From: Diplolepis rosae
Lineage: Eukaryota > Arthropoda > Insecta > Hymenoptera > Diplolepididae
DNA: 64,000 nt
Assembly: GCA_030998225.1 (NCBI GenBank)
Contig: JAPYXD010000308.1
Location: forward strand, 4,350,001 to 4,414,000
Direction: 5' to 3'
Made by a program: the position numbers and the translations under genes. This document shows positions 18,848 through 64,000 of the stretch, one piece after another (position 1 is the stretch's first letter; every line of letters begins with the position of its first letter). The notes under the pieces were generated by a model. It was not told where the DNA came from and ran no database searches. It saw nothing but the letters and a program-made list of their open reading frames with translations.

Positions 18848-18849
18848 TA

Positions 18850-23735: not shown

Positions 23736-23783
23736 ATTCTGTAATATTTATTTTGGCTTGGGGTCAGCTTAGTTTCTAATTAT

Positions 23784-23803
23784 TTATGTCATCGAGGACA
23801 TAA
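23784..23803. other. 7-bp stem hairpin next to the hammerhead-like core
   Basis: TTATGTC, loop ATCGAG, GACATAA. The same hairpin lies at about 60653-60672 in block A2. It may be part of the ribozyme region or a separate RNA structure of the terminal repeat. Confidence 0.5.
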
Positions 23804-23820
23804 ACATTAGGAAGGCAAAC

Positions 23821-23850
23821 GTTTCGGCCACAGATGGGGGCCCTCTTCAG
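23821..23850 (-). ncRNA. Hammerhead-ribozyme-like core in block A1
   Basis: On the minus strand CTGAAGA (23850-23844) is followed by GGGCC...TGGCC and GAAAC (23825-23821). These match the hammerhead core pattern CUGANGA, stem II, GAAA. An ATGTC or ATGTT that could be the cleavage site lies downstream, in the order of a type I hammerhead. Stem II needs a bulged G, and stem I is not convincing. PLE terminal repeats are known to carry hammerheads, which raises the prior. Confidence 0.35.
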
Positions 23851-26800
23851 TGCCAATTAGCTTAATTGTAACCTTTAAATATTTATTAACTAATACATGC
23901 AATTAAGAAATATATGGTATTTTTTGTTTTTTTGTTTTTTTTTTCTTTTGCTTATTAATTAAAAATAGAGTAAACATGCAGAAAAACTTATGAGTAAGCG
24001 AGTTTCTAGGTGTGAAGAACAAGGCCGTTCCAAAGACTGCTCCAACAAGTAATCCTCTCCCACAGGAACCGTGAAAAATGCGGCCGCGGAACGCCCTCCC
24101 TCAAGGGCACATATATAAACACAATTATTTCAAACCAGAAAGAAACAACACACGGGAGAATATAACGTGGGTCCTTGGTAAAGCACGCACAGCAAACCAC
24201 ACATATGCACGAGCACCAGAAGTAAAGGACACTGAAGTTAAAACAATCAGAACATTGCAATTGGTACAGAAAAATTTTTATTTATTTTCTCAAAAACCAC
24301 AGAGATGACAGACGGATGTAAGTCCACCACTCTGCCACATGGCTAGAAGAAAACTGATTTGGGAATAACATGTGTTTAGGAAGACAAGTGTTCAGAGTTT
24401 GACGTATATGGAGAGCATTCTCCATGATAGGTCAGGTTCCAACACCAAGGGTTATACACAGTCAAAATTTACTTTAATGTCCCCGGCACTTGAGATTCCT
24501 ATGTGCTCAAGCGTCCAAGGAAAGCAAACCCCTACCACGTGTTCGAAGAATTCTGTAAGGAAAGGCACTCAATACGGTCCCGGCGTCGTAAAAATTATAC
24601 ACATTTTTGTGGATATAGAAAGTAAAATGCAGCTAAGGTGGAAATTCACGAAAAATTAATTTCCTGGTTTTTCGAAACCTCTGATTCTTAATAACTGGAA
24701 CCCGGAAAAATACAATATTAAGTTTATAAGTATGATGTCCGAGTTTTTCGGATTATAAGACTGCTGTAAGTGGTAAAATATTACGCGAGCTATTCAAACT
24801 CTGATTTGAATAGAGAGATCAATTAATACGGTAGCACTACGGATTCTGAGACTAATAAAAAGTTGCAAAGTGATGCGCGAGCACTTCAGACTCTGACTTT
24901 AAGTGAGGTGGCCAAGTAATGCGCGAGTTCTTGGGAGTATGAGAATTTTTATAAAGTGGCCAAGTAATACGCGAGATTTCCGGACTCTGACTTTAAGTAA
25001 GGTGGCCAAGTAATGCGTGAATTTTTAGGAGTATAAGAATTTTTATAAAGTGGCCAAGTAATACGCGAGATTTCCGGGCTCTGACTTAAAATAAGGTGGC
25101 CAAGTAATGCGCGAGTTCTTAGGAGTATAAGAGTTTTTATAAGTAGCCAAGTAATACGCGAGTTAAACGAAGTCTGTCTTAAAAAGAGTGGCCAAGTAAT
25201 GCGCGAATTCTTAGGAGTATAAGAATTGTTATAAAGTGGCCAACTAATACGCGAGATTTCCGGACTCTGACTTAAAGTAAAGTGGCCAAGTAATGCGCGA
25301 GTTCTTAGGATTATAAGAATTTTTCTAAAGTGGCCAAGTAATACGCGAGATTTCCGGACTCTGACTTTAAATAAGGTGGCCAAGTAATGCGCGAATTCTT
25401 AGGAGTATAAGAATTGTTATAAAGTGACCAAGTAATACGCGAATTCATAGGAGTATAAGAATTTTTCTAAAGTGGTCAAGTAGTACGCGAGATTTCGGGA
25501 CTCTGACTTTAAGTAAGGTGGCCAAGTAATACGCGAGTTCTTAGGAGTATAAGAATTTTTATAAGAGGCCAACTAATACGCGAGATTTCCGGACTCTGAC
25601 CTTAAATAAGGTGGCCAAGTAATGCGCGAATTCTTAGGAGTATAAGAATTGTTATAAAGTGGCCAACTAATACGCGAGATTTCCGGACTCTGACTTAAAG
25701 TAAAGTGGCCAAGTAATGCGCGAGTTCTTAGGATTATAAGAATTTTTCTAAAGTGGCCAAGTAATACGCGAGATTTCCGGACTCTGACTTTAAATAAGGT
25801 GGCCAAGTAATGCGCGAATTCTTAGGAGTATAAGAATTTTTCTAAAGTGGCCAAGTAATACGCGAGATTTCCGGACTCTGACCTTAAGTAAGGTGGCCAA
25901 GTAATGCGCGAGTTCAATGGACCTCATGACTGATATAAATACATAAGTGGCCTCGTAATACGCGAGTTAGACGAAGCCTGTCCTGAAAAGAGTGGCCAAA
26001 TAATGCGCGAGATTTCCGGACTCTGACTTTAAGTAAGGTGGCCAAGTAATGCGCGAGTTCTTCTGAGTATAAGAATTTTTATAAGTAGCCAAGTAATACG
26101 CGAGTTACACGAAGTCTGTCTTGAAAAGAGTGGCCAAGTAATGCGCGAATTCTTAGGAGTATACGAATGGTTATACAGTGTCCAACTACTTCGCGAGATT
26201 TCCGGACTCTGACTAGAACTAAAGTGGCCAAGTAATGCGCGAGTTCTTAGAAGTATAAGATTTTTACAAGTGGCCAACTAATACGCGAGTTAAACGAAGT
26301 CTGTCTTGAAAAGAGTGGCCAAGTAATGCGCGAATTCTTAGGAGTAAGAGAATTTCTATAAAGTGGCTAAGTAATACGTGAAAATTCCGTACTCTGACTT
26401 AAAGTAAAGTGTCCAAGTAATGCGCGAGTTCTTAGGAGTGTAAGAATTTTTATAGAGTGGCCAAGTAATACGCGAATTCATAGGAGTATAAGAATTTTTC
26501 TAAAGTGGTCAAGTAGTACGCGAGATTTCCGGACTCTGACTTTAAGTAAGGTGGCCAAGTAATGCGCGAGTTCTTAGGAGTATAAGAATTTTTATAAGTA
26601 GCCAAGTAATACGCGAGTTAAACGAAGTCTGTCTTAAAAAGAGTGGCCAAGTAATGCGCGAATTCTTAGGAGTATAAGAATTTTTCTAAAGTGGCCAAGT
26701 AATACGCGAGATTTCCGGACTCTGACTTTAAATAAGGTGGCCAAGTAATGCGCGAATTCTTAGGAGTATAAGAATTTTTATAAAGTGGCCAAGTAATACG

Positions 26801-29800
26801 CGAGATTTCCGGGCTCTGACTTAAAATAAGGTGGCCAAGTAATGCGCGAGTTCTTAGGAGTATAAGAGTTTTTATAAGTAGCCAAGTAATACGCGAGTTA
26901 AACGCAGTCTGTCTTGAAAAGAGTGGCCAAGTAATGCGCGAATTCTTAGGAGTATAAGAATTGCTATAAAGTGGCCAAGTAATACGCGAGATTTCCGGAC
27001 TCTGACTTAAAGTAAAGTGGCCAAGTAATGCGCGAGTTCTTAGGATTATAAGAATTTTTCTAAAGTGGCCAAGTAATACGCGAGATTTCCGGACTCTGAA
27101 TTTAAATAAGGTGGCCAAGTAATGCGCGAATTCTTAGGAGTATAAGAATTTTTCTAAAGTGGCCAAGTAATACGCGAGTTACACGAAGTCTGTCTTGAAA
27201 AGAGTGGCCAAGTAATGCGCGAATTCTTAGGAGTATAAGAATTGTTATAAAGTGGCCAACTAATACGCGAGATTTCCGGACTCTGACTAGAACTAAAGTG
27301 GCCAAGTAATGCGCGAGTTCTTAGAAGTATAAGAATTTTTACAAGTGGCCAAGTAATACGCGAGTTAAACGAAGTCTGTCTTGAAAAGAGTGGCCAAGTA
27401 ATGCGCGAATTCTTAGGAGTAAGAGAATTTTTATAAAGTGGCCAAGTAATACGTGAAAATTCCGTACTCTGACTTAAAGTAAAGTGGCCAAGTAATGCGC
27501 GAGTTCTTAGGAGTGTAAGAATTTTTATAAAGTGGCCAAGTAATACGCGAATTCATAGGAGTATAAGAATTTTTCTAAAGTGGTCAAGTAGTACGCGAGA
27601 TTTCCGGATTCTGACTTTAAGTAAGGTGGCCAAGTAATGCGCGAGTTCTTAGGAGTATAAGAATTTTTATAAGTAGCCAAGTAATATGCGAGTTACACGA
27701 AGTCTGTCTTGAAAAGAGTGGCCAAGTAATGAGCGAATTCTTAGGAGTATAAGAATTTTTCTAAAGTGGCCAAGTAATACGCGAGATTTCCGGACTCTGA
27801 CATTAAATAAGGTGGCCAAGTAATGCGCGAATTCTTAGGAGTATAAGAATTTTTATAAAGTGGCCAAGTAATACGCGAGATTTCCGGGCTCTGACTTAAA
27901 ATAAGGTGGCCAAGTAATGCGCGAATTCTTAGGAGTATAAGAATTTTTATAAAGTGGCCAAGTAATACGCGAATTCATAGGAGTATAAGAATTTTTCTAA
28001 AGTGGCCAAGTAGTACGCGAGATTTCCGGACTCTGACTTTAAGTAAGGTGGCCAAGTAATACGCGAGTTCTTAGGAGTATAAGAATTTTTATAAGAGGCC
28101 AACTAATACGCGAGATGTCCGGACTCTGACTTTAAATAAGGTGGCCAAGTAATGCGCGAATTCTTAGGAGTATAAGAATTTTTCTAAAGTGGCCAAGTAA
28201 TACGCGAGTTACACGAAGTCTGTCTTGAAAAGAGTGGCCAAGTAATGCGCGAATTCTTAGGAGTATAAGAATTGTTATAAAGTGGCCAACTAATACGCGA
28301 GATTTCCGGACTCTGACTAGAACTAAAGTGGCCAAGTAATGCGCGAGTTCTTAGAAGTATAAGAATTTTTACAAGTGGCCAACTAATACGCGAGTTAAAC
28401 GAAGTCTGTCTTGAAAAGAGACGCCAAGTAATGCGCGAATTTTTAGGAGTATAAGAATTTTTATAAATAGGCCAAGAAATACGTGAAAATTCCGTACTCT
28501 GACTTAAAGTAAAGTGTCCAAGTAATGCGCGAGTTCTTAGGAGTGTAAGAATTTTTATAGAGTGGCCAAGTAATACGCGAATTCATAGGAGTATAAGAAT
28601 TTTTCTAAAGTGGTCAAGTAGTACGCGAGATTTCCGGAATCTGACTTTAAGTAAGGTGGCCAAGTAATGCGTGAGTTCTTAGGAGTATAAGAATTTTTAT
28701 AAGTAGCCAAGTAATACGCGAGTTACACGAAGTCTGTCTTGAAAAGAGTGGCCAAGTAATGCGCGAATTCTTAGGAGTATAAGAATTTTTCTAAAGTGGC
28801 CAAGTAATACGCGAGATTTCCGGACTCTGACTTTAAGTAAGGTGGCCAAGTAATGCGCGAATTCTTAGGAGTATAAGAATTTTTATAAAGTGGCCAAGTA
28901 ATACGCGAGATTTCCGGGCTCTGACTTAAAATAAGGTGGCCAAGTAATGCGCGAGTTCTTAGGAGTATAAGAGTTTTTATAAGTAGCCAAGTAATACGCG
29001 AGTTAAAAGAAGTCTGTCTCAAAAAGAGTGGCCAAGTAATGCGCGAATTCTTAGGAGTATAAGAATTGCTATAAAGTGGCCAACTAATACGCGAGATTTC
29101 CGGACTCTGACTTAAAGTAAAGTGGCCAAGTAATGCGCGAGTTCTTAGGATTATAAGAATTTTTCTAAAGTGGCCAAGTAATACGCGAGATTTCCGGACT
29201 CTGAATTTAAATAAGGTGGCCAAGTAATGCGCGAATTCTTAGGAGTATAAGAATTTTTCTAAAGTGGCCAAGTAATACGCGAGTTACACGAAGTCTGTCT
29301 TGAAAAGAGTGGCCAAGTAATGCGCGAATTCTTAGGAGTATAAGAATTGTTATAAAGTGGCCAACTAATACGCGAGATTTCCGGACTCTGACTTGAAGTA
29401 AAGTGGCCAAGTAATGCGCGAGTTCTTAGAAGTATAAGAATTTTTACAAGTGGCCAACTAATACGCGAGTTAAACGAAGTCTGTCTTGAAAAGAGTGGCC
29501 AAGTAATGCGCGAATTCTTAGGAGTAAGAGAATTTTTAAAAAGTGGCCAAGTAATACGAGATAATTCCGTACTCTGACTTAAAGTAAAGTGGCCAAGTAA
29601 TGCGCGAGTTCTTAGGAGTGTAAGAATTTTTATAAAGTGGCCAAGTAATACGCGAATTCATAGGAGTATAAGAATTTTTCTAAAGTGGTCAAGTAGTACG
29701 CGAGATTTCCGGACTCTGACTTTAAGTAAGGTGGCCAAGTAATGCGCGAGTTCTTAGGAGTATAAGAATTTTTATAAGTAGCCAAGTAATACGCGAGTTA

Positions 29801-32800
29801 AACGAAGTCTGTCTTAAAAAGAGTGGCCAAGTAATGCGCGAATTCTTAGGAGTATAAGAATTTTTCTAAAGTGGCCAAGTAATACGCGAGATTTCCGGAC
29901 TCTGACATAAAGTAAGGTGGCCAAGTAATGCGCGAATTCTTAGGAGTATAAGAATTTTTATAAAGTGGCCAAGTAATACGCGAGATTTCCGGGCTCTGAC
30001 TTAAAATAAGGTGGCCAAGTAATGCGCGAATTCTTAGGAGTATAAGAATTTTTATAAAGTTGCCAAGTAATACGCGAATTCATAGGAGTATAAGAATTTT
30101 TCTAAAGTGGCCAAGTAGTACGCGAGATTTCCGGACTCTGACTTTATTTAAGGTGGCCGAGTACTACTCGAGTTCATTGGACTAAGAGAATTTTTATAGG
30201 AGGCCAACTAATACGCGAGATGTCCGGACTCTGACCTTAAATAAGGTGGCCAAGTAATGCGCGAATTCTTAGGAGTATAAGAATTGTTATAAAGTGGCCA
30301 ACTAATACGCGAGATTTCCGGACTCTGACTTAAAGTAAAGTGGCCAAGTAATGCGCGAGTTCTTAGGATTATAAGAATTTTTCTAAAGTGGCCAAGTAAT
30401 ACGCGAGATTTCCGGACTCTGACTTTAAATAAGGTGGGCAAGTAATGCGCGAATTCTTAGGAGTATAAGAATTTTTCTAAAGTGGCCAAGTAATACGCGA
30501 GATTTCCGGACTCTGACCTTAAGTAAGGTGGCCAAGTAATGCGCGAGTTCAATGGACCTCATGACTGATATAAATACATAAGTGGCCTCGTAATACGCGA
30601 GTTAGACGAAGCCTGTCCTGAAAAGAGTGGCCAAATAATGCGCGAGATTTCCGGACTCTGACTTTAAGTAAGGTGGCCAAGTAATGCGCGAGTTCTTCTG
30701 AGTATAAGAATTTTTATAAGTAGCCAAGTAATCCGAGTGTTAAACGAAGTCTGTGTTAATAAGAGTGGCCAAGTAATGCGCGAATTCTTAGGAGTATAAG
30801 AATTGCTATAAAGTGGCCAACTAATACGCGAGATTTCCGGACTCTGACTTAAAGTAAAGTGGCCAAGTAATGCGCGAGTTCTTAGGATTATAAGAATTTT
30901 TCTAAAGTGGCCAAGTAATACGCGAGATTTCCGGACTCTGACTTTAAATAAGGTGGCCAAGTAATGCGCGAATTCTTAGGAGTATAAGAATTTTTATAAA
31001 GTGGCCAAGTAATACGCGAATTCATAGGAGTATAAGAATTTTTCTAAAGTGGCCAAGTAGTACGCGAGATTTCCGGACTCTGACTTTAAGTAAGGTGGCC
31101 AAGTAATACGCGAGTTCTTAGGAGTATAAGAATTTTTATAAGAGGCCAACTAATACGCGAGATTTCCGGACTCTGACCTTAAATAAGGTGGCCAAGTAAT
31201 GCGCGAATTCTTAGGAGTATAAGAATTGTTATAAAGTGGCCAACTAATACGCGAGATTTCCGGACTCTGACTTAAAGTAAAGTGGCCAAGTAATGCGCGA
31301 GTTCTTAGGATTATAAGAATTTTTCTAAAGTGGCCAAGTAATACGCGAGATTTCCGGACTCTGACTTTAAATAAGGTGGCCAAGTAATACGCGAGTTCTT
31401 AGGAGTATAAGAATTTTTATAAGTGGCCAACTAATAAGCGAGATTTCCGGACACTGACGTTGAATAAGGTGGCCAAGTACTGCGCGAATTCTTAGGAGTA
31501 TAAGAATTGTTATAAAGTGGCCAACTAATACGCGAGATTTCCGGACTCTGACTTAAAGTAAAGTGGCCAAGTAATGCGCGAGTTCTTAGGATTATAAGAA
31601 TTTTTCTAAAGTGGCCAAGTAATACGCGAGATTTCCGGACTCTGACTTTAAATAAGGTGGCCAAGTAATGCGCGAATTCTTAGGAGTATAAGAATTTTTC
31701 TAAAGTGGCCAAGTAATACGCGAGATTTCCGGACTCTGACCTTAAGTAAGGTGGCCAAGTAATGCGCGAGTTCAATGGACCTCATGACTGATATAAATAC
31801 ATAAGTGGCCTCGTAATACGCGAGTTAGACGAAGCCTGTCCTGAAAAGAGTGGCCAAATAATGCGCGAGATTTCCGGACTCTGACTTTAAGTAAGGTGGC
31901 CAAGTAATGCGCGAGTTCTTCTGAGTATAAGAATTTTTATAAGTAGCCAAGTAATACGCGAGTTACACGAAGTCTGTCTTGAAAAGAGTGGCCAAGTAAT
32001 GCGTGAATTCTTAGGAGTATAAGAATTGTTATAAAGTGGCCAACTAATACGCGAGATTTCCGGACTCTGACTAGAACTAAAGTGGCCAAGTAATGCGCGA
32101 GTTCTTAGAAGTATAAGAATTTTTACAAGTGGCCAACTAATGCGCGAGTTAAACGAAGTCTGTATTGAAAAGAGTGGCCAAGTAATGCGCGAATTCTTAG
32201 GAGTAAGAGAATTTTTATAAAGTGGCCAAGTAATACGTGAAAATTCCGTACTCTGACTTAAAGTAAAGTGGCCAAGTAATGCGCGAGTTCTTAGGAGTGT
32301 AAGAATTTTTATAAAGTGGCCAAGTAATACGCGAATTCATAGGAGTATAAGAATTTTTCTAAAGTGGTCAAGTAGTACGCGAGATTTCCGGACTCTGACT
32401 TTAAGTAAGGTGGCCAAGTAATGCGCGAGTTCTTAGGAGTATAAGAATTTTTATAAGTAGCCAAGTAATACGCGAGTTAAACGAAGTCTGTCTTAAAAAG
32501 AGTGGCCAAGTAATGCGCGAATTCATAGGCGTATAAGAATTTTTCTAAAGTGGCCAAGTGATACGCGAGATTTCCGGACTCTGACTTTAAATAAGGTAGC
32601 CAAGTAATGCGCGAATTCTTAGGAGTATAAGAATTTTTATAAAGTGGCCAAGTAATACGCGAGATTTCCGGACTCTGACTTAAAATAAGGTGGCCAAGTA
32701 ATGCGCGAATTCTTAGGAGTGTAAGAATTTTTATAAAGTGGCCAAGTAATACGCGAATTCATAGGAGTATAAGAATTTTTCTAAAGTGGCCAAGTAGTAC

Positions 32801-33989
32801 GCGAGATTTCCGGACTCTGACTTTAAGTAAGGTGGCCAAGTAATACGCGAGTTCTTAGGAGTATAAGAATTTTTATAAGTAGCCAAGTAATACGCGAGTT
32901 AAACGAAGTCTGTCTTAAAAAGAGTGGCCAAGTAATGCGCGAATTCTTAGGAGTATAAGAATTTTTATAAAGTGGCCAAGTAATACGCGAGATTTCCGGA
33001 CTCTGACCTTAAGTAAGGTGGCCAAGTAATGCGCGAGTTCTTAGGATTATAAGAATTTTTCTAAAGTGGCCAAGTAATACGCGAGATTTCCGGACTCTGA
33101 CCTTAAGTAAGGTGGCCAAGTAATGCGCGAGTTCTTAGGAGTATAAGAATTTTTCTAAAGTGGTCAAGTAATACGCGAGATTTCCGGACTCTGACTTTAA
33201 ATAAGGTGGCCAAGTAATGCGCGAATTCTTAGGAGTATAAGAATTTTTCTAAAGTGGCCAAGTAATACGCGAGATTTCCGGACTATGACCTTAAGTAAGG
33301 TGGCCAAGTAATGCGCGAGTTCAATGGACCACATGACTGATATAAAGACATTAGTGGTCTCGTAATACTCGAGTTAAACGAAGTCTGTCTTTAATAGAGT
33401 GTCCAAGTAATGCGCGAATTCTTAGGAGTGTAAGAATTTTTATAAAGTGGCCAAGTAATGCGCGAGATTTCCGGACTCTGACTTAAAGTAAAGTGGCCAA
33501 GTAATGCGCGAGTTCTTAGGATTATAAGAATTTTCCTAAAGTGGCCAAGTAATACGCGAGATTTCCGGACTCTGACTTTAAATAAGGTGGCCAAGTAATG
33601 CGCGAATTCTTAGGAGTATAAGAATTTTTCTAAAGTGGCCAAGTAATACGCGAGATTTCCGGACTCTGACCTTAAGTAAGGTGGCCAAGTAATGCGCGAG
33701 TTCAATGGACCACAGGACTGATATAAATACATAAGTGGTCTCGTAATACGCGAGTTAAACGAAGTCTGTCTTGAAAAGAGTGGCCAAGTAATGCGCGAAT
33801 TCTTAGGAGTGTAAGAATTGTTATAAAGTGGCCAACTAATACGCGAGATTTCCGGACTCTGACTTAAAGTAAAGTGGCCAAGTAATACGCGAGTTCTTAG
33901 GATTATAAGAATTTTTCTAAAGTGGCCAAGTAATACGCGAGATTTCCGGGCTCTGACTTAAAATAAGGTGGCCAAGTAATGCGCGAATT

Positions 33990-36850
33990 CTTAGGAGTAT
34001 AAGAATTTTTCTAAAGTGGCCAAGTAATACGCGAGATTTCCGGACTCTGACCTTAAGTAAGGTGGCCAAGTAATGCGCGAGTTCAATGGACCACAGGACT
34101 GATTTAAATACATAAGAGGTCTCGTAATACGCGAGTTAAACGAAGTCTGTCTTGAAAAGAGTGGCCAAGTAATGCGCGAATTCTTAGGAGTGTAAGAATT
34201 GTTATAAAGTGGCCAACTAATACGCGAGATTTCCGGACTCTGACTTAAAGTAAAGTGGCCAAGTAATGCGCGAGTTCTTAGGATTATAAGAATTTTTCTA
34301 AAGTGGCCAAGTAGTACGCGAGATTTCCGGACTCTGACTTTAAGTAAGGTGGCCAAGTAATACGCGAGTTCTTAGGAGTATAAGAATTTTTATAAAGTGG
34401 CCAAGTAATACGCGAGTTTTCCGGGCGATGACTTAAAATAAGGTGGCCAAGTAATGCGCGAGTTCTTAGGAGTATAAGAGTTTTTATAAGTAGCCAAGTA
34501 ATACGCGAGTTAAACGAAGTCTGTCTTAAAAAGAGTGGCCAAGTAATGCGCGAATTCTTAGGAGTATAAGAATTGCTATAAAGTGGCCAACTAATACGCG
34601 AGATTTCCGGACTCTGACTTAAAGTAAAGTGGCCAAGTAATGCGCGAGTTCTTAGGATTATAAGAATTTTTCTAAAGTGGCCAAGTAATACGCGAGATTT
34701 CCGGACTCTGACTTTAAATAAGGTGGCCAAGTAATGCGCGAATTCTTAGGAGTATAAGAATTTTTATAAAGTGGCCAAGTAATACGCGAATTCATAGGAG
34801 TATAAGAATTTTTCTAAAGTGGCCAAGTAGTACGCGAGATTTCCGGACTCTGACTTTAAGTAAGGTGGCCAAGTAATACGCGAGTTCTTAGGAGTATAAG
34901 AATTTTTATAAGAGGCCAACTAATACGCGAGATTTCCGGACTCTGACCTTAAATAAGGTGGCCAAGTAATGCGCGAATTCTTAGGAGTATAAGAATTGTT
35001 ATAAAGTGGCCAACTAATACGCGAGATTTCCGGACTCTGACTTAAAGTAAAGTGGCCAAGTAATGCGCGAGTTCTTAGGATTATAAGAATTTTTCTAAAG
35101 TGGCCAAGTAATACGCGAGATTTCCGGACTCTGACCTTAAGTAAGGTGGCCAAGTAATGCGCGAGTTCAATGGACCACAGGACTGATATAAATACATAAG
35201 TGGTCTCGTAATACGCGAGTTAAACGAAGTCTGTCTTGAAAAGAGTGGCCAAGTAATGCGCGAATTCTTAGGAGTGTAAGAATTGTTATAAAGTGGCCAA
35301 CTAATACGCGAGATTTCCGGACTCTGACTTAAAGTAAAGTGGCCAAGTAATGCGCGAGTTCTTAGGATTATAAGAATTTTTCTAAAGTGGCCAAGTAATA
35401 CGCGAGATTTCCGGGCTCTGACTTAAAATAAGGTGGCCAAGTAATGCGCGAATTCTTAGGAGTATAAGAATTTTTCTAAAGTGGCCAAGTAATACGCGAG
35501 ATTTCCGGACTCTGACCTTAAGTAAGGTGGCCAAGTAATGCGCGAGTTCAATGGACCACAGGACTGATATAAATACATAAGTGGTCTCGTAATACGCGAG
35601 TTAAACGAAGTCTGTCTTGAAAAGAGTGGCCAAGTAATGCGCGAATTCTTAGGAGTGTAAGAATTGTTATAAAGTGGCCAACTAATACGCGAGATTTCCG
35701 GACTCTGACTTAAAGTAAAGTGGCCAAGTAATACGCGAGTTCTTAGGATTATAAGAATTTTTCTAAAGTGGCCAAGTAGTACGCGAGATTTCCGGACTCT
35801 GACTTTAAGTAAGGTGGCCAAGTAATACGCGAGTTCTTAGGAGTATAAGAATTTTTATAAAGTGGCCAAGTAATACGCGAGATTTCCGGGCTCTGACTTA
35901 AAATAAGGTGGCCAAGTAATGCGCGAGTTCTTAGGAGTATAAGAATTTTTATAAGTAGCCAAGTAATACGCGAGTTAAACGAAGTCTGTCTTAAAAAGAG
36001 TGGCCAAGTAATGCGCGAATTCTTAGGAGTATAAGAATTGCTATAAAGTGGCCAACTAATACGCGAGATTTCCGGACTCTGACTTAAAGTAAAGTGGCCA
36101 AGTAATGCGCGAGTTCTTAGGATTATAAGAATTTTTCTAAAGTGGCCAAGTAATACGCGAGATTTCCGGACTCTGACTTTAAATAAGGTGGCCAAGTAAT
36201 GCGCGAATTCTTAGGAGTATAAGAATTTTTATAAAGTGGCCAAGTAATACGCGAATTCATAGGAGTATAAGAATTTTTCTAAAGTGGCCAAGTAGTACGC
36301 GAGATTTCCGGACTCTGACTTTAAGTAAGGTGGCCAAGTAATACGCGAGTTCTTAGGAGTATAAGAATTTTTATAAGAGGCCAACTAATACGCGAGATTT
36401 CCGGACTCTGACCTTAAATAAGGTGGCCAAGTAATGCGCGAATTCTTAGGAGTATAAGAATTGTTATAAAGTGGCCAACTAATACGCGAGATTTCCGGAC
36501 TCTGACTTAAAGTAAAGTGGCCAAGTAATGCGCGAGTTCTTAGGATTATAAGAATTTTTCTAAAGTGGCCAAGTAATACGCGAGATTTCCGGACTCTGAC
36601 TTTAAACAAGGTGGCCAAGTAATGCGCGAATTCTTAGGAGTATAAGAATTTTTATAAAGTGGCCAAGTAATACGCGAATTCATAGGAGTATAAGAATTTT
36701 TCTAAAGTGGCCAAGTAGTACGCGAGATTTCGGGACTCTGACTTTAAGTAAGGTTGCCAAGTAATACGCGAGTTCTTAGGAGTATAAGAATTTTTATAAG
36801 AGGCCAACTAATACGCGAGATTTCCGGAATCTGACCTTTAATAACGTGGC
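33990..36850. repeat. Tandem higher-order block, 1465-bp period
   Basis: Several distinctive stretches recur exactly 1465 bp apart: 33991 and 35456, 34284 and 35749, 34920 and 36385. Each block is about 31 monomers. Copies are nearly identical, so the duplication is recent. Confidence 0.75.
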
Positions 36851-48100: not shown

Positions 48101-48980
48101 ATAAAGTGGCCAAGTAATACGCGAGATTTCCGGGCTCTGACTTAAAATAAGGTGGCCAAGTAATGCGCGAATTCTTAGGAGTATAAGAATTTTTATAAAG
48201 TGGCCAAGTAATACGCGAATTCATAGGAGTATAAGAATTTTTCTAAAGTGGCCAAGTAGTACGCGAGATTTCCGGACTCTGACTTTAAGTAAGGTGGCCA
48301 AGTAATACGCGAGTTCTTAGGAGTATAAGAATTTTTATAAGAGGCCAACTAATACGCGAGATTTCCGGACTCTGACCTTAAATAAGGTGGCCAAGTAATG
48401 CGCGAATTCTTAGGAGTATAAGAATTGTTATAAAGTGGCCAACTAATACGCGAGATTTCCGGACTCTGACTTAAAGTAAAGTGGCCAAGTAATGCGCGAG
48501 TTCTTAGGATTATAAGAATTTTTCTAAAGTGGCCAAGTAATACGCGAGATTTCCGGACTCTGACCTTAAGTAAGGTGGCCAAGTAATGCGCGAGTTCAAT
48601 GGACCTCATGACTGATATAAATACATAAGTGGCCTCGTAATACGCGAGTTAGACGAAGCCTGTCTTGAAAAGAGTGTCCAAATAATGCGCGAGATTTCCG
48701 GACTCTGACTTTAAGTAAGGTGGCCAAGTAATGCGCGAGTTCTTAGGATTTTTAGAATTTTTCTAAAGTGTGCAAGTAATATGCGAGATTTCCGGACTCT
48801 GTCCTTAAGTAAGGTGGCCAAGTAATGCGCGAGTTCAATGGACCACAGGACTGATATAAATACATAAGTGGTCTCGTAATACGCGAGTTAAACGAAGTCT
48901 GTCTTGAAAAGAGTGGCCAAGTAATGCGCGAATTCTTAGGAGTATAAGAATTGTTATAAAGTGGCCAACTAAAACGCGAG
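42192..48980. repeat. Higher-order block duplicated with 3392-bp offset
   Basis: The rare TTCAATGGACCTCATG half occurs at 42192, 43554, 45584 and 46946. The first and third, and the second and fourth, are both 3392 bp apart, and each pair is 1362 bp internally. The surrounding monomer order is also repeated, with small rearrangements after about 47400. Confidence 0.7.
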
Positions 48981-51900: not shown

Positions 51901-54900
51901 TAGGAGTATAAGAATTTTTCTAAAGTGGCCAAGTAATACGCGAGATTTCCGGACTCTGACTTTAAATAAGGTGGCCAAGTAATGCGCGAATTCTTAGGAG
52001 TATAAGAATTTTTATAAAGTGGCCAAGTAATACGCGAGATTTCCGGGCTCTGACTTAAAATAAGGTGGCCAAGTAATGCGCGAATTCTTAGGAGTATAAG
52101 AATTTTTATAAAGTGGCCAAGTAATACGCGAATTCATAGGAGTATAAGAATTTTTATAAAGTGGCCAAGTAGTACGCGAGATTTCCGGACTCTGACTTTA
52201 AGTAAGGTGGCCAAGTAATACGCGAGTTCTTAGGAGTATAAGAATTTTTATAAGAGGCCAACTAATACGCGAGATTTCCGGGCTCTGAGTTTAAATATTG
52301 TGGCCAAGTAATGCGCGAATTCTTAGGAGTATAAGAATTGTTATAAAGTAGCCAACTAATACGCGAGATTTCCGGACTCTGACTTAAAGTAAAGTGGCCA
52401 AGTAATGCGCGAGTTCTTAGGATTATAAGAATTTTTCTAAAGTGGCCAAGTAATACGCGAGATTTCCGGACTCTGACCTTAAGTAAGGTGGCCAAGTAAT
52501 GCGCGAGTTCAATGGACCTCATGACTGATATAAATACATAAGTGGCCTCGTAATACGCGAGTTAGACGAAGCCTGTCCTGAAAAGAGTTGCCAAATAATG
52601 CGCGAGATTTCCGGACTCTGACTTTAAGTAAGGTGGCCAAGTAATGCGCGAGTTCTTAGGATCATAAGAATTTTTCTAAAGTGGCCAAGTAATACGCGAG
52701 ATTTCCGGACTCTGACCTTAAGTAAGGTGGCCAAGTAAGGCGCGAGTTCAATGGACCACAGGACTGATATAAATACATAAGTGGTCTCGTAATACGCGAG
52801 TTAAACGAAGTCTGTCTTGAAAAGAGTGGCCAAGTAATGCGCGAATTCTTAGGAGTATAAGAATTGTTATAAAGTGGCCAACTAATACGCGAGATTTACG
52901 GACTCTGACTAGAACTAAAGTGGCCCAGTAATGCGCGAGTTCTTAGGAGTATAAGAATTTTTATAAGTGGCCAAGTAATACGCGAGTTAAACGAAGTCTG
53001 TCTTGAAAAGAGTGGCCAAGTAATGCGCGATTTCTTAGGAGTAAGAGAATTTTTATAAAGTGGCCAAGTAATACGTGAAAATTCCGTACTCTGACCTTAA
53101 GTAAGGTGGCCAGGTAATGCGCGAGTTCAATGGACCACAGGACTGATATAAATACATAAGTGGTCTCGTAATACGCGAGTTAAACGAAGTCTGTATTGAA
53201 AAGAGTGGCCAAGTAATGCGCGAATTCTTAGGAGTGTAAGAATTGTTATAAAGTGGCCAACTAATACGCGAGATTTCCGGACTCTGACTTTAAGTAAGGT
53301 GGCCAAGTAATGCGCGAGTTCTTAGGAGTATAAGAATTTTTATAAGTAGCCAAGTAATACGCGAGTTAAACGAAGTCTGTCTTAAAAAGAGTGGCCAAGT
53401 AATGCGCGAATTCTTAGGAGTATAAGAATTTTTCTAAAGTGGCCAAGTAATACGCGAGATTTCCGGACTCTGACCTTAAGTAAGGTGGCCAAGTAATGCG
53501 CGAGTTCTTAGGATTATAAGAATTTTTCTAAAGTGGCCAAGTAATACGCGAGATTTCCGGACTCTGACCTTAAGTAAGGTGGCCAAGTAATGCGCGAGTT
53601 CTTAGGATTATAAGAATTTTTCTAAAGTGGCCAAGTAATACGCGAGATTTCCGGACTCTGACTTTAAATAAGGTGGCCAAGTAATGCGCGAATTCTTAGG
53701 AGTATAAGAATTTTTCTAAAGTGGCCAAGTAATACGCGAGATTTCCGGACTCTGACCTTAAGTAAGGTGGCCAAGTAATGCGCGAGTTCAATGGACCACA
53801 GGACTGATATAAATACATAAGTGGTCTCGTAATACGCGAGTTAAACGAAGTCTGTCTTAAAAAGAGTGGCCAAGTAATGCGCGAATTCTTAGGAGTATAA
53901 GAATTTTTCTAAAGTGGCCAAGTAATACGCGAGATTTCCGGACTCTGACCTTAAGTAAGGTGGCCAAGTAATGCGCGAGTTCAATGGACCACAGGACTGA
54001 TATAAATACATAAGTGGTCTCGTAATACGCGAGTTAAACGAAGTCTGTCTTGAAAAGAGTGGCCAAGTAATGCGCGAATTCTTAGGAGTATAAGAATTGT
54101 TATAAAGTGGCCAACTAATACGCGAGATTTCCGGACTCTGACTTTAAGTAAGGTGGCCAAGTAATGCGCGAGTTCTTAGGAGTATAAGAATTTTTATAAG
54201 TAGCCAAGTAATACGCGAGTTAAACGAAGTCTGTCTTAAAAAGAGTGGCCAAGTAATGCGCGAATTCTTAGGAGTATAAGAATTTTTCTAAAGTGGCCAA
54301 GTAATACGCGAGATTTCCGGACTCTGACCTTAAGAAAGGTGGCCAAGTAATGCGCGAATTCTTAGGAGTGTAAGAATTTTTCTAAAGTGGCCAAGTAATA
54401 CGCGAGATTTCCGGACTCTGACCTTAAGTAAGGTGGCCAAGTAATGCGCGAGTTCAATGGACCACAGGACTGATATAAATACATAAGTGGTCTCGTAATA
54501 CGCGAGTTAAACGAAGTCTGTCTTGAAAAGAGTGGCCAAGTAATGCGCGAATTCTTAGGAGTATAAGAATTGTTATAAAGTGGCCAACTAATACGCGAGA
54601 TTTCCGGACTCTGACTTAAAGTAAAGTGGCCAAGTAATGCGCGAGTTCTTAGGAGTATAAGAATTTTTATAAGTAGCCAAGTAATACGCGAGTTAAACGA
54701 AGTCTGTCTTGAAAAGAGTGGCCAAGTAATGCTCGAATTGTTAGGAGTAAGAGAATTTTTTTAATGTGGCCAAGTAATACGTTAAAATTGCGTACTCTGA
54801 ATTAAAGTAAAGTGTCCAAGTAATGCGCGAGTTCTTAGGAGTGTAAGAATTTTTATAGAGTGGCCAAGTAATACGAGAATTCATTGGAGTATAAGAATTT

Positions 54901-57900
54901 TTCTAAAGTGGCCAAGTAGTGCGCGAGATTTCCGGACTCTGACCTTAAGTAAGGTGGCCAAGTAATGCGCGAGTTCTTAGGATTATAAGAATTTTTCTAA
55001 AGTGGCCAAGTAATACGCGAGATTTCCGGACTCTGACCTTAAGTAAGGTGGCCAAGTAATGCGCGAGTTCTTAGGATTATAAGAATTTTTCTAAAGTGGC
55101 CAAGTAATACGCGAGATTTCCGGACTCTGACCTTAAGTAAGGTGGCCAAGTAATGCGCGAGTTCTTAGGATTATAAGAATTTTTCTAAAGTGGCCAAGTA
55201 ATACGCGAGATTTCCGGACTCTGACTTTAAATAAGGTGGCCAAGTAATGCGCGAATTCTTAGGAGTATAAGAATTTTTCTAAAGTGGCCAAGTAATACGC
55301 GAGATTTCCGTACTATGACTTTAAGTAAGGTGGCGAAGTAATACGCGAGTTCAATGGACCACAGGACTGATATAAATACCTAAGTGGTCTCGTAATACGC
55401 GAGTTACACGAAGTCTGTCTTGAAAAGAGTGGCCAAGTAATGCGCGAATTCTTAGGAGTGTAAGAATTTTTATAAAGTGGCCAAGTAATGCGCGAGATTT
55501 CCGGACTCTGACTTAAAGTAAAGTGGCCAAGTAATGCGCGAGTTCTTAGGATTATAAGAATTTTCCTAAAGTGGCCAAGTAATACGCGAGATTTCCGGAC
55601 TCTGACTTTAAATAAGGTGGCCAAGTAATGCGCGAATTCTTAGGAGTATAAGAATTTTTCTAAAGTGGCCAAGTAATACGCGAGATTTCCGGACTCTGAC
55701 CTTAAGTAAGGTGGCCAAGTAATGCGCGAGTTCAATGGACCACAGGACTGATATAAATACATAAGTGGTCTCGTAATACGCGAGTTAAACGAAGTCTGTC
55801 TTGAAAAGAGTGGCCAAGTAATGCGCGAATTCTTAGGAGTGTAAGAATTGTTATAAAGTGGCCAACTAATACGCGAGATTTCCGGACTCTGACTTAAAGT
55901 AAAGTGGCCAAGTAATGCGCGAGTTCTTAGGAGTATAAGAATTTTTATAAGTAGCCAAGTAATACGCGAGTTAAACGAAGTCTGTCTTGAAAAGAGTGGC
56001 CAAGTAATGCGCGAATTCTTAGGAGTAAGAGAATTTTTATAAAGTGGCCAAGTAATACGTGAAAATTCCGTACTCTGACTTAAAGTAAAGTGGCCAAGTA
56101 ATGCGCGAGTTCTTAGGAGTGTAAGAATTTTTATAAAGTGGCCAAGTAATACGCGAATTCATAGGAGTATAAGAATTTTTCTAAAGTGGCCAAGTAGTAC
56201 GCGAGATTTCCGGACTCTGACTTTAAGTAAGGTGGCCAAGTAATGCGCGAGTTCTTAGGAGTATAAGAATTTTTATAAGTGGCCAAGTAATACGCGAGTT
56301 AAACGAAGTCTGTCTTGAAAAGAGTGGCCAAGTAATGCGCGAATTCTTAGGAGTAAGAGAATTTTTATAAAGTGGCCAAGTAATACGTGAAAATTCCGTA
56401 CTCTGACTTAAAGTAAAGTGGCCAAGTAAGGCGCGAGTTCTTATGAGTATAAGAATTTTTATAAGTGGCCAAGTAATACGCGAGTTAAACGAAGTCTGTC
56501 TTGAAAAGAGTGGCCAAGTAATGCGCGAATTTTTAGGAGTATAAGAATTGTTATAGAGAGGCCAACTAATACGCGAGATTTCCGGACTTTGACTTAAAGT
56601 AAGGTGGCCAAGTAATGCGCGAATTCTTAGGAGTATAAGAATTTTTCTAAAGTGGCCAAGTAATACGCGAGATTTCCGGACTCTGACTTTAAATAAGGTG
56701 GCCAAGTAATGCGCGAATTCTTAGGAGTATAAGAATTTTTATAAAGTGGCCAAGTAATACGCGAGATTTCCGGGCTCTGACTTAAAATAAGGTGGCCAAG
56801 TAATGCTCGAATTCTTAGGAGTATAAGAATTTTTATAAAGTGGCCAAGTAATACGCGAATTCATAGGAGTATAAGAATTTTTCTAAAGTGGCCAAGTAGT
56901 ACGCGAGATTTCCGGACTCTGACTTAAAGTAAAGTGGCCAAGTAATGCGCGAGTTCTTAGGATTATAAGAATTTTTCTAAAGTGGCCAAGTAATACGCGA
57001 GATTTCCGGACTCTGACTTTAAATAAGGTGGCCAAGTAATGCGCGAATTCTTAGGAGTATAAGAATTTTTCTAAAGTGGCCAAGTAATACGCGAGATTTC
57101 CGGACTCTGACCTTAAGTAAGGTGGCCAAGTAATGCGCGAGTTCAATGGACCTCATGACTGATATAAATACATAAGTGGCCTCGTAATACGCGAGTTAGA
57201 CGAAGCCTGTCCTGAAAAGAGTGGCCAAATAATGCGCGAGATTTCCGGACTCTGACTTTAAGTAAGGTGGCCAAGTAATGCGCGAGTTCTTCTGAGTATA
57301 AGAATTTTTATAAGTAGCCAAGTAATACGCGAGTTACACGAAGTCTGTCTTGAAAAGAGTGGCCAAGTAATGCGCGAATTCTTAGGAGTATAAGAAATGT
57401 TATAAAGTGGCCAACTAATACGCGAGATTTCCGGACTCTGACTAGAACTAAAGTGGCCAAGTAATGCGCGAGTTCTTAGAAGTATAAGAATTTTTACAAG
57501 TGGCCAACTAATACGCGAGTTAAACGAAGTCTGTCTTGAAAAGAGTGGCCAAGTAATGCGCGAATTCTTAGGAGTAAGAGAATTTTTATAAAGTGGCCAA
57601 GTAATACGTGAAAATTCCGTACTCTGACTTAAAGTAAAGTGGCCAAGTAATGCGCGAGTTCTTAGGAGTATAAGAATTTTTATAAGTGGCCAAGTAATAC
57701 GCGAGTTAAACGAAGTCTGTCTTGAAAAGAGTGGCCAAGTAATGCGCGAATTTTTAGGAGTATAAGAATTGTTATAGAGAGGCCAACTAATACGCGAGAT
57801 TTCCGGACTTTGACTTAAAGTAAGGTGGCCAAGTAATGCGCGAATGCTTAGGAGTATAAGAATTGTTATAAAGTGGCCAACTAATACGCGAGATTTCCGA

Positions 57901-57938
57901 ATTCTGACCTAAATAAGGTAGCCAAGTAATGCGCGAGT

Positions 57939-58042
57939 TTCAACAAAATCTGGCCCAGATAAAATGGCCAGATGTGAGATCATAAAACCTGAAGGGACGA
58001 CTGAAATACATGGTGGAGTCCCAATTTCTCAGGTCAGATTTT
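57939..58042 (-). other. PLE 3' untranslated segment between gene and satellite
   Basis: About 100 bp of non-satellite sequence. In PLE sense it runs from the stop codon to the first satellite monomer with no block-A sequence between, which shows that the downstream repeat opens with satellite. It contains a short inverted pair, TCTGGCC and GGCCAGA. Confidence 0.6.
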
Positions 58043-60575
58043 TTATGACCCTTTTTTAAGTATAGGGTTGTAAATCTTAGAAAGGTTTTCTATGTCAGTT
58101 CTAAGATTCACTGCATCGTCCGTACCTGCAATGTGACACATTTCCAACAGTAATCTTTTTTTATAGTGTATTTCGTTAGCTAGGATTTTTGTTCTGTCAA
58201 AATCGAAGAAATGGTCTTTCTCAATTGTATGTTTAGTTAGTGCATTTTGTTTATTAGGGCTTTCTCTAATGTTGTTTTTATGTTCTTTTAACCTGTTTTT
58301 AAGGAACCTTTTAGTTTGACCTATATAGACGGCTTTGCAATCATTCCCTTTGCAAGGAACGCTGTAGACGATGTTGGACGATAGTTCTTTAGGAATTTTA
58401 TCTTTGGTTGGCTTGAATATCATTTTTAGATTTTTTTGATTTTTATACGCGGTTTTCAAGTTGTAGCTGTGTAGGATTCCCGATATTTTTTCTGACAGAC
58501 CTTCGATATAAGGAATGCTAATGAAAGGTTTGATTTCCGCGTTTATGTCGATATGATTGTTGCCTAATCGTGTTTTTTGTTCAAGGGTAAGAAGTCTCTG
58601 GTTAATAATGTCTTGTGTGAAACAAGGTGGGTAGTCATTTTCATCTAGTGTATCTGTAATTAATTTAAGGTTGTTTTTTTGAAATTTCTTGTCTGAAAGT
58701 AAAATTGCTCTGTCAACCAAGTTGTTAATTACACTTTTTTTATATCTAAGGGGGTGGTGGGAGTTGAAGTTAAGGTATCTGCCTGACCAACTAGGCTTTC
58801 TATACCAATTGAAAGATAGTTTTTGGTTCTGTTTCCTCGTGATAGAGACGTCTAAGAAATTGATAGCACCACCGACCTCTTTTTCTAGAGTGAATTCAAT
58901 ATTGAGGGGGTTAGTATTGAAAATTTGTAAAATGCGGTCAACATGTGTGTTGGGAACCATGATGAAAATATCGTCAACGTAACGAAAATAGACAGGTACT
59001 TCAAAGTCAAGGTTGGAAAGTCTGTCTTTCTCTAGGTCATCCATCACTAAATCAGCAAGGACGGGGGAGAAAGGAGAACCCATTGGTAATCCACGTTTTT
59101 GGAAATAAGTTTTGCCCTCAAAGTTAAAATCTGTGCTGTCTAAGCATAATCGCAACCCTTCTTCGAAATCTCTCCATGGTAATGATACTTTGCGACGAAT
59201 CTCATCCCATCTACTTTTTACTGCAGAGATAGCTGCTTCCTTGGGTACATTTGTGAAGAGAGAGACTACATCTAATGAGGCCAGAACATAGTTATCCGGG
59301 ACGTTCACATTTTTAAGTTTTTTAACTAATTCAAAACTGTTGATGATTTTTGATCTAGGTGGGGTAGTGTTTTTGGATATGGTAGAGCTGAAGAATGAAG
59401 CTAGATTGTAAGTTGGGCTGCCCTCATAGGAAACAATTGGTCTAACAGGAATACTTTCTTTTGTGAATTTTGGGTAATCCGTAAAATCTCGAGGGAACGG
59501 CATTGGAAGACTTTAAATCCTTAGCTAACAGGTTGTTAATTAGACTCTTGTTTTCCCATGATTTGACTAGAGAATTGACTTTATTTTGTATTTTAGTTGT
59601 TGTGTCTTTGGGGCGGACTTGGTATGTGTTCTCGTCTTGTAAAAGGTTTTTAACTTTCTCATTATAATCTGTTCGCGTCAAGGCTACTGTGGTGTTACCT
59701 TTGTCTGCCCTGGTAAAAACTATGTCCGGATTATTTTTAACGAAATTTCTAGCTTCTTTGATTTCTTTAACAGGCTGTACGAATTTAGATTTATGCTCGT
59801 TGCCACATTTTTTAAAATTATTAACAGCATTTGCGACTTTAAGTCGCATTTCATCATGTGATTCCGGATTAATTTTATTAATGTTAGATTCAATGTCCGC
59901 GATGATAGTATAAGTAGGAATTTCCCGTTTTTTAATAGTAACCCCGAAATTTATACCTAAGCTAGCTATTTTTGCGACATTTTCCGGGATTTGATTTCCT
60001 GTCAGGTTTTTGAACCACTTTTGGTTGAGTTTGCTGTTTGAAACAGTCTTTTTATTGTAATGTATCGCGTTAATTAGACAATCCAATTTCCTTTTGCACT
60101 TTAATTTACTTTCCTCGAATTGGCGCGAGACTTTCCTGGATTCAAATTCAAAAAATCTGTCGAACACGTGGTCTGGAAAAACAGCAAAAATTCTATTTTC
60201 AAGATGTCCAACCCGATTCTCGAGATTCCTTAAATGTGCGCATATATCGCGAATCTCGAGATTCAGAATGGACTTCTGAAAGGTGATATGCAAGTTTGAG
60301 AAACGTTTACCCATACTTCTGGAATTGAACCCGATGGTTTGAGTTCCAAGTACTTGTAAGTGTTTGGGAACAACTTCAAGTTTCCTACAACGTAATAGAA
60401 AAATTCTTTGATTAAAACTTTTTGCAATTTCCAGATTCGATTGAGACCATTTTTTGAGGAGTGATGCCTCCTCATATCCATATCTTTCTTCAATTTGTTT
60501 GTAAAAACCCATCCCATTTCTACCCCCCTGATTGTTGCCATTTGTAAAATTATATCGTGACATGTTTCCGTACAT
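58043..60575 (-). pseudogene. Penelope-like polyprotein: reverse transcriptase plus GIY-YIG endonuclease, one frameshift
   Basis: Two overlapping frames, 60575-59442 (377 residues) and 59503-58043 (486), make one PLE protein of about 840 residues. The upstream part has a PLE-specific N-terminus, DKGNTTVALTRTDY, and ends at the conserved YGLPKIHK. The downstream part continues with IPVRPIVS, LASLDVVSLFTNVP (RT motif A), GLPMGSPFSPVLADL (motif B), YVDD (catalytic motif C) and then the endonuclease: VYSVPC-x4-C, AVYIGQTKRFLKNRLKEH, LLLEM and YNPIL, which hold the expected Y, R, H, E and N. The frame changes in an A4 run near 59485, where one extra A would explain it. All catalytic motifs look intact. 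The enzyme should copy its RNA at nicked DNA ends. Confidence 0.9.
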
Positions 60576-60604
60576 GTTCCTTGTTACATTGACCCACAGT
60601 TATA

Positions 60605-61611
60605 ATTCTGTAATATTTATTTTGGCTTGGGGTCAGCTTAGTTTCTAATTATTTATGTCATCGAGGACATAAACATTAGGAAGGCAAACGTTTCGGCCAC
60701 AGATGGGGGCCCTCTTCAGTGCCAATTAGCTTAATTGTAACCTTTAAATATTTATTAACTAATACATGCAATTAAGAAATATATGGTATTTTTTGTTTTT
60801 TTGTTTTTTTTTTTTCTTTTGCTTATTAATTAAAAATAGAGTAAACATGCAGAAAAACTTATGAGTAAGCGAGTTTCTAGGTGTGAAGAACAAGGCCGTT
60901 CCAAAGACTGCTCCAACAAGTAATCCTCTCCCACAGGAACCGTGAAAAATGCGGCCGCGGAACGCCCTCCCTCAAGGGCACATATATAAACACAATTATT
61001 TCAAACCAGAAAGAAACAACACACGGGAGAATATAACGTGGGTCCTTGGTAAAGCACGCACAGCAAACCACACATATGCACGAGCACCAGAAGTAAAGGA
61101 CACTGAAGTTAAAACAATCAGAACATTGCAATTGGTACAGAAAAATTTTTATTTATTTTCTCAAAAACCACAGAGATGACAGACGGATGTAAGTCCACCA
61201 CTCTGCCACATGGCTAGAAGAAAACTGATTTGGGAATAACATGTGTTTAGGAAGACAAGTGTTCAGAGTTTGACGTATATGGAGAGCATTCTCCATGATA
61301 GGTCAGGTTCCAACACCAAGGGTTATACACAGTCAAAATTTACTTTAATGTCCCCGGCACTTGAGATTCCTATGTGCTCAAGCGTCCAAGGAAAGCAAAC
61401 CCCTACCACGTGTTCGAAGAATTCTGTAAGGAAAGGCACTCAATACGGTCCCGGCGTCGTAAAAATTATACACATTTTTGTGGATATAGAAAGTAAAATG
61501 CAGCTAAGGTGGAAATTCACGAAAAATTAATTTCCTGGTTTTTCGAAACCTCTGATTCTTGATAACTGGAACCCGGAAAAATACAATATTAAGTTTATAA
61601 GTATGATGTCC
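60605..61611 (-). repeat. Block A2: non-satellite part of the 5' Penelope terminal repeat
   Basis: Direct repeat of block A1, offset 36869 bp before the T tract and 36871 after it. It lies 29 bp upstream of the PLE start codon in gene sense, where a promoter-bearing terminal repeat is expected. Only a few substitutions separate it from A1. Confidence 0.85.
60690..60719 (-). ncRNA. Hammerhead-ribozyme-like core in block A2
   Basis: Same sequence as the core in block A1: CTGAAGA at 60719-60713 and GAAAC at 60694-60690 on the minus strand. It sits between the satellite and the PLE gene, so self-cleavage would release the 5' end of the PLE transcript. The same reservations about stems I and II apply. 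Confidence 0.35.
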
Positions 61612-64000
61612 GAGTTTTTCGGATTATAAGACTGCTGTAAGTGGTAAAATATTACGCGAGCTATTCAAACTCTGATTTGAATAGAGAGATCAATTAATAC
61701 GGTAGCACTACGGATTCTGAGACTAATAAAAAGTTGCAAAGTGATGCGCGAGCACTTCAGACTCTGACTTTAAGTGAGGTGGCCAAGTAATGCGCGAGTT
61801 CTTGGGAGTATGAGAATTTTTATAAAGTGGCCAAGTAATACGCGAGATTTCCGGACTCTGACTTTAAGTAAGGTGGCCAAGTAATGCGTGAATTTTTAGG
61901 AGTATAAGAATTTTTATAAAGTGGCCAAGTAATACGCGAGATTTCCGGGCTCTGACTTAAAATAAGGTGGCCAAGAAATGCGCGAGTTCTTAGGAGTATA
62001 AGAGTTTTTATAAGTAGCCAAGTAATACGCGAGTTAAACGAAGTCTGTCTTAAAAAGAGTGGCCAAGTAATGCGCGAATTCTTAGGAGTATAAGAATTGT
62101 TATAAAGTGGCCAACTAATACGCGAGATTTCCGGACTCTGACTTAAAGTAAAGTGGCCAAGTAATGCGCGAGTTCTTAGGATTATAAGAATTTTTATAAA
62201 GTGGCCAAGTAATACGCGAATTCATAGGAGTATAAGAATTTTTATAAGAGGCCAACTAATACGCGAGATTTCCGGACTCTGACTTTAAATAAGGTGGCCA
62301 AGTAATGCGCGAATTCTTAGGAGTATAAGAATTGTTATAAAGTGGCCAACTAATACGCGAGATTTCCGGACTCTGACTTAAAGTAAAGTGGCCAAGTAAT
62401 GCGCGAGTTCTTAGGATTATAAGAATTTTTCTAAAGTGGCCAAGTAATACGCGAGATTTCCGGACTCTGACTTTAAATAAGGTGGCCAAGTAATGCGCGA
62501 ATTCTTAGGAGTATAAGAATTTTTCTAAAGTGGCCAAGTAATACGCGAGATTTCCGGACTCTGACCTTAAGTAAGGTGGCCAAGTAATGCGCGAGTTCAA
62601 TGGACCTCATGACTGATATAAATACATAAGTGGCCTCGTAATACGCGAGTTAGACGAAGCCTGTCCTGAAAAGAGTGGCCAAATAATGCGCGAGATTTCC
62701 GGACTCTGACTTTAAGTAAGGTGGCCAAGTAATGCGCGAGTTCTTCTGAGTATAAGAATTTTTATAAGTAGCCAAGTAATACGCGAGTTACACGAAGTCT
62801 GTCTTGAAAAGAGTGGCCAAGTAATGCGCGAATTCTTAGGAGTAAGAGAATTGTTATAAAGTGGCCAACTAATACGCGAGATTTCCGGACTCTGACTTAA
62901 AGTAAAGTGGCCAAGTAATGCGCGAGTTCTTAGGATTATAAGAATTTTTCTAAAGTGGCCAAGTAATACGCGAGATTTCCGGACTCTGACTTTAAATAAG
63001 GTGGCCAAGTAATGCGCGAATTCTTAGGAGTATAAGAATTTTTCTAAAGTGGCCAAGTAATACGCGAGATTTCCGGACTCTGACCTTAAGTAAGGTGGCC
63101 AAGTAATGCGCGAGTTCAATGGACCAAAGGACTGATAAAAATACACCAGTCAACTCCTATTACGCGCGTTAAACGAAGTCTGTCTGGAAAAGAGTGGCCA
63201 AGTAATGCGCGAATTCTTAGGAGTATAAGAATTGTTATAAAGTGGCCAACTAATACGCGAGATTTACGGACTCTGACTAGAACTAAAGTGGCCAAGTAAT
63301 GCGCGAGTTCTTAGAAGTATAAGAATTTTTACAAGTGGCCAACTAATACGCGAGTTAAACGAAGTCTGTCTTGAAAAGAGTGGCCAAGTAATGCGCGAAT
63401 TCTTAGGAGTAAGAGAATTTTTATAAAGTGGCCAAGTAATACGTGAAAATTCCGTACTCTGACTTAAAGTAAAGTGGCCAAGTAATGCGCGAGTTCTTAG
63501 GAGTGTAAGAATTTTTATAAAGTGGCCAAGTAATACGCGAATTCATAGGAGTATAAGAATTTTTCTAAAGTGGTCAAGTAGTACGCGAGATTTCCGGACT
63601 CTGACTTTAAGTAAGGTGGCCAAGTAATGCGCGAGTTCTTAGGAGTATAAGAATTTTTATAAGTAGCCAAGTAATACGCGAGTTAAACGAAGTCTGTCTT
63701 AAAAAGAGTGGCGAAGTAATGCGCGAATTCTTAGGAGTATGAGAATTTTTCTAAAGTGGCCAAGTAATACGCAAATTTCCGGACTCTGACTTTAAGTACG
63801 GTGGCCAAGTAATGCGCGAGTTCTTGGGATCATAAGAGTTTTTCTGAAGTGGCCAAGTAATACGCGAGATTTCCCGACTCTGACTTTAAGTAAGGTGGCC
63901 AAGTAATGCGCGAGTTCTTAGGAGTATAAGAATTTTTCTAAAGTGGCCAAGTAATACGCGAGATTTCCGGACTTTGACCTTAAGTAAGGTGGCCAAGTAA
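61612..64000. repeat. Start of the second satellite array
   Basis: The same 47-bp satellite beginning with the same decayed edge monomers as array 1 (24748-24900 matches about 61619-61771). The arrays stay in register for the first ~580 bp and then diverge in the order of halves from about 62190. The array continues off the window. Confidence 0.93.

Follow-up and report, generated by a model that had tools for sequence, protein, structure and literature searches.

The canonical endonuclease-bearing Penelope elements, PAc of Anolis and Penelope of D. virilis, resemble the locus described here in their gene for reverse transcriptase (RT) and GIY-YIG endonuclease, in the direct pseudo-LTRs (pLTRs) that a truncated tandem copy provides, and, as far as the candidate motif found here goes, in a hammerhead near the pLTR/ORF joint (PMC11167929, PMC8969392). 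In contrast to the present locus, no satellite between gene and pLTR is described in the available parts of these sources. Pen1 of Adineta vaga, with pLTRs of ~0.2 kb, likewise forms a partial tandem and has a spacer between element and 3' pLTR. According to the sections at hand, this spacer consists of 0.9-1.5 kb of unrelated host DNA and is variable between copies (PMC3846280), whereas here it is 33 kb of satellite with an edge common to both arms. The Terminons of rotifer telomeres are also very large members of the Penelope class, with hammerhead motifs and head-to-tail arrays. As far as the excerpted description goes, they do not have the endonuclease layout of canonical elements, and their growth at telomeres comes from accessory genes instead of a satellite (PMC6431247).

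Outside this class, the Ogre LTR elements of Lathyrus are comparable. Tandem repeats at a fixed place downstream of their coding region, in the 3'-UTR, are reported to have grown into satellite arrays (PMC7004042, in part). These are plant LTR elements with many known copies, whereas here a Penelope element is described from one locus, with the satellite next to block A in two arms and next to the gene once. A satellite connected to Penelope sequences is HviSat02-2707 of the fish Harttia, according to the portion of PMC11955569 available; its monomer has 2.7 kb, whereas here monomers of 45-54 bp lie within the element unit. Penelope elements are listed among satellite sources in a review (PMC12692304, in part). 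In titles and abstract openings, with subscription journals mostly outside the scope, no precedent was found for a long satellite lying between the gene and the pLTR of a Penelope unit; the parts seen of PMC3833285 and PMC9026859 were not helpful in this respect.

The window, a stretch of 64,000 nucleotides from Diplolepis rosae, contains on its plus strand a gag-like ORF, block A1, ~33 kb of satellite, a Penelope gene on the minus strand, block A2 and again satellite up to the window end. Read in gene sense, the unit consists of leader and gene, ~0.1 kb, the satellite array and block A, with a minimal hammerhead-like motif and an AATAAA shortly before its end. The anatomy was read from this single locus, and the mechanism was inferred from it. 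The features are as follows.

22786 to 23735, plus strand: gag-like ORF of an LTR retroelement, the insertion target, with its CCHC knuckle cut by the A1 end (ORF and relatives P0121, P0122).
23736 to 24735, minus strand (gene sense): block A1, the 3'-terminal pLTR of the full unit (self-comparison, alignment).
23747 to 23752, minus strand: AATAAA hexamer; in gene sense, A1 ends 11 nt after it (pattern scan).
23814 to 23854, minus strand: minimal hammerhead-like motif in A1 (fold and pattern scan; no Rfam match).
24735 to 57966, minus strand: satellite array 1, 705 monomers of 45-54 bp, both edges decayed (core sites, TRF).
58043 to 60575, minus strand: Penelope-like gene with RT and GIY-YIG-like endonuclease, one frameshift (ORFs 60599-59442 and 59512-58043, Pfam).
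60576 to 60604, minus strand: 29-nt leader between A2 and ATG (start codon set by comparison with P0001).
60605 to 61606, minus strand: block A2, the upstream pLTR and end of the presumed 5'-truncated upstream unit (self-comparison, alignment).
60683 to 60723, minus strand: minimal hammerhead-like motif in A2 (fold and pattern scan).
61606 to 64000, minus strand: satellite of the upstream unit (arm 2), cut by the window end (comparison with array 1).

Elsewhere in the window, a hAT-type transposase was found at 3870-13085 (ORFs 7331-8398 and 8399-9586, Dimer_Tnp_hAT match). It is enclosed by inverted repeats of 2.8 kb (3870-6678 and 10278-13085), which are 98.9% identical and unusually long for terminal inverted repeats of a hAT element; a 447-bp tandem duplication is present at 9832-10726. 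A palindrome-like foldback region of 2.2 kb occupies 16605-18849 (inverted self-match at 92%). An ORF of 186 aa at 2013-2573 resembles by eye the end of a LINE-type reverse transcriptase, with no Pfam match at E 1e-3. At 19937-20263, a 154-bp repeat occurs in 2.1 copies with 74% matches; its consensus is unrelated to the satellite.

The initial annotation had assigned the element to the Penelope-like class, which is borne out by its gene for RT and endonuclease of the Penelope type. The two overlapping ORFs represent one gene broken by a frameshift. Pfam detected RVT_1 with 42.6 bits, and GIY-YIG in the window ORF with 21.8 bits, just below the cut-off of 22.6. The best relative, the unbroken protein P0001 of a public record (843 aa), shares 98% identity with the 489-aa piece across 99% of the latter and gave no GIY-YIG match at E 1e-3; for the relative P0004 this domain was matched with 29.1 bits. 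In an alignment of 14 proteins the endonuclease positions Y, C, YxG, R, H and E are invariant, and the RT motifs are conserved with insect relatives. Hence, a Penelope-type RT, judged by Pfam and alignment, and a C-terminal GIY-YIG endonuclease were both found. Among 120 listed of 706 matches, the species-named relatives are insects (sawflies, ants, wasps, a bee and mosquitoes) with 38-45% identity. An insect host is thus probable, although similarity between retroelements is no proof of it. A sequence search of solved structures gave no match, and in viral contigs no other Penelope locus was confirmed. The stop codon (58045-58043) lies ~60-105 bp from the first satellite monomer, in agreement with the earlier statement that gene and satellite meet within ~100 bp.

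As initially described, A1 (23736 to ~24735) and A2 (60605 to ~61606) are near-identical direct repeats on either side of the gene, and both enter the same satellite via the same decayed monomers. For the arms 23736-25322 and 60605-62192, 2 substitutions and 3 gap columns were counted in 1,586 aligned bases that extend through the decayed edge; the divergence is 0.13% in substitutions. A has the same terminal base at both joints, with gag at 23736 and with the gene leader at 60605. With A1 and A2 flanking the gene and a common end base, the arrangement is that of a partial tandem with direct pLTRs, and the identification of A as pLTR of a Penelope-like element is supported. Since satellite and A are connected via the same edge in each arm, the satellite belongs to the structure of the element.

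The further claim that satellite and A form one terminal repeat of more than 34 kb was not upheld. Exact collinearity of the arms stops at 25322/62192, after 1.6 kb of which roughly 0.4-0.6 kb is satellite. There follow 279 nt in arm 1 versus 92 nt in arm 2, and past this stretch 25602-26161 equals 62285-62844 with zero differences (~2.2 kb across one gap); afterwards the arms part, and the array of arm 2 leaves the window at 64000. Windows of 200 bp from this last identical zone also match other places of the array at 100%, and for 200-bp windows of the arm-2 satellite the best matches in array 1 reach 94-100%, at scattered places. Beyond the collinear part, the arrays of both arms are close kin but mutually shuffled. 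What was termed a terminal repeat is the 3' part of a unit gene-satellite-A.

In the predicted fold of the gene-sense A end, two stems, GGCA/UGCC and GGCC/GGCC, surround a hammerhead core, and a real stem III is lacking. The energy is not exceptional (the two folded stretches have z-scores of -1.66 and -1.70), and Rfam found no hammerhead. A structural hammerhead pattern, written after the fold, matched twice in the window, at both A ends, and not once in 40 simulated windows. The core motif alone was rejected as evidence; a loose pattern gave 6 matches in the window versus a mean of 4.85 in 20 shuffles. From fold and pattern, the motif is a hammerhead-like candidate for a minimal type I hammerhead in the pLTR. 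Minimal type I hammerheads without helix III are reported to sit in the pLTRs of Penelope elements (PMC7761336, in part), and reverse transcription has been shown to start internally in the RNA, close to where pLTR and ORF meet (PMC11167929, in part). In gene sense, an AATAAA lies 11 nt upstream of the A end, and the ATG follows 29 nt downstream; such a terminus would thus result from initiation within the RNA as well as from initiation at a processed RNA end.

At the other joint, the gag ORF (22786-23772) reads across the junction into A1. Its protein shares 71% identity with a gag of Rhagoletis pomonella, and the Rhagoletis protein P0122 shows how an intact gag continues beyond the cut CCHC knuckle. 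P0121, from another public record, matches in 307 of 314 residues; of the 7 differences, 6 are substitutions and one concerns the start residue. It carries the same fused tail read from A1, so that the joint does exist and did not arise from a mistake in the present assembly. If P0121 represents an allele, its divergence is larger than between the arms, which would fit arms that were homogenised or a tandem that formed later. On protein data, this hints that the gag insertion may be older than the arm divergence implies.

Array 1 contains 706 core sites from 24772 to 57966 and hence 705 monomers, 177 of them distinct. The 705 spacings are 48 bp (257), 46 bp (250), 45 bp (93), 47 bp (71) and 54 bp (34), and TRF reported higher-order periods of 94 and 186 bp. 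Minus-strand self-comparison revealed no inverted satellite copies; the array has one orientation. At its edges the best-match identity is 0.73, 0.71 and 0.83 for the first three monomers and 0.93 and 0.74 for the last two, whereas a perfect twin exists for 19 of 20 sampled inner monomers. Unequal exchange is expected to leave such a pattern, with a homogenised centre and decay at the edges. Internal duplications of several kb were also detected by self-comparison. A permissive profile scan showed no satellite relic above noise left of 24740 in the window or inside the gene. The satellite had no match in viral contigs; six bacterial contigs gave one chance-like match each and no array.

These data are best explained by a partial tandem of an endonuclease-bearing Penelope-like element in which a tandem repeat of the 3' region grew into the ~33-kb array; we assign this reading a probability of roughly 0.6. 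A 5'-truncated upstream unit (satellite and A2) would precede a full unit (gene, satellite and A1) inserted in the gag gene. A partial tandem accounts for the direct repeats of A flanking the gene and for the identical base at which A is joined to gene and target. The order, the shared ends and the shared satellite edge are observed. The tandem repeat in the 3' region would be ancestral to both units, and unequal exchange or slippage may have enlarged it to a homogenised array of ~33 kb, leaving decaying monomers at both edges. Such growth would require no copying of a 33-kb RNA. Precedents exist for both parts. Partial tandems and pLTRs of Penelope elements are described in the available parts of PMC8969392, PMC11167929 and PMC3846280, the first of which derives a pLTR from a full-length copy with a 5'-truncated tandem neighbour; for growth in place, the Ogre repeats of Lathyrus are the corresponding case. 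Some hints speak against growth in place, namely the wider count of private differences given below, the substitutions of P0121, and the restriction to a single locus without a short-array copy as comparison.

In a rival reading, which is considered doubtful, a founder copy captured a host satellite between its gene and its 3' pLTR and passed it on to its descendants. Pen1_Av, with its spacer of captured host DNA, offers a model (PMC3846280, in part), and no match of the satellite to the rest of the element emerged from the permissive profile scan. However, both array edges are decayed monomers grading into the element and not sharp joints. Furthermore, the same satellite edge is present in both arms, whereas Pen1 spacers differ between copies as far as described (PMC3846280); a spacer differing between copies was not found when the two arms of this locus were compared.

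It is improbable that reverse transcription copies satellite and A as a whole, as a genuine terminal repeat tens of kb long, and that the element thereby disperses megasatellites. The junction of satellite and A in both arms fits this model, and the available part of PMC6431247 describes giant sizes for the Penelope-related Terminons. The end of arm collinearity after 1.6 kb (~2.2 kb with one gap), followed by shuffled arrays, argues against it, as do the run of the arm-2 array out of the window and the evidence from one insertion at the DNA level. The array is poor in poly(A) hexamers on its gene-sense strand (1 AATAAA, 3 ATTAAA), which might favour this model, but the plus strand is equally poor (1 AATAAA, 2 ATTAAA). 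Thus, there is no sign of selection, and avoidance of poly(A) signals on the gene-sense strand was rejected.

The relative age of the array duplications also bears on whole copying. A wider count of private differences, based on unique 25-mers, gave 0.45-1.96% over five duplicated block pairs (27 differences in 2,844 bases for the first pair) versus 0.13% in the arms. By this count, the large duplications would be older than the arm pair and the array possibly long when the tandem formed, which would favour whole copying. Many of these differences are clustered, and keeping isolated ones alone removes the contrast: 37 of 289 differences are isolated, 11 of these private, in 12,551 aligned bases versus 2 in 1,586 for the arms. 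By this stricter count, which is not decisive as it keeps 37 of 289 differences, the large duplications would be no older than the arm pair, which would favour growth in place. The counts disagree, and the dating of the duplications before the arm pair was dropped.

We likewise regard it as hardly probable that the satellite functions within an enlarged pLTR, with multi-kb arrays copied and amplified by reverse transcription at each jump; if true, a Penelope retroelement would seed megasatellites around the genome. A DNA-level tandem duplication or an assembly error, for which the single locus and the difficulty of assembling long tandem arrays might be put forward, is very improbable, because A is joined at the same base on both sides, as expected from retro-insertion, and because another public record, differing by 6 substitutions, contains the same fusion of gag and A1; this record covers the gag-A1 joint and not 57966 or 60605.

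The growth of satellites from tandem repeats inside plant Ogre elements and Helitrons is reported in the available parts of PMC7004042 and PMC12628747. Under the partial-tandem reading, a homogenised 33-kb array between a Penelope gene and its pLTR would extend this route of satellite growth to the third retroelement class. With arms only 0.13% apart, the locus is young enough to test whether the array travels with the element or grows in place.
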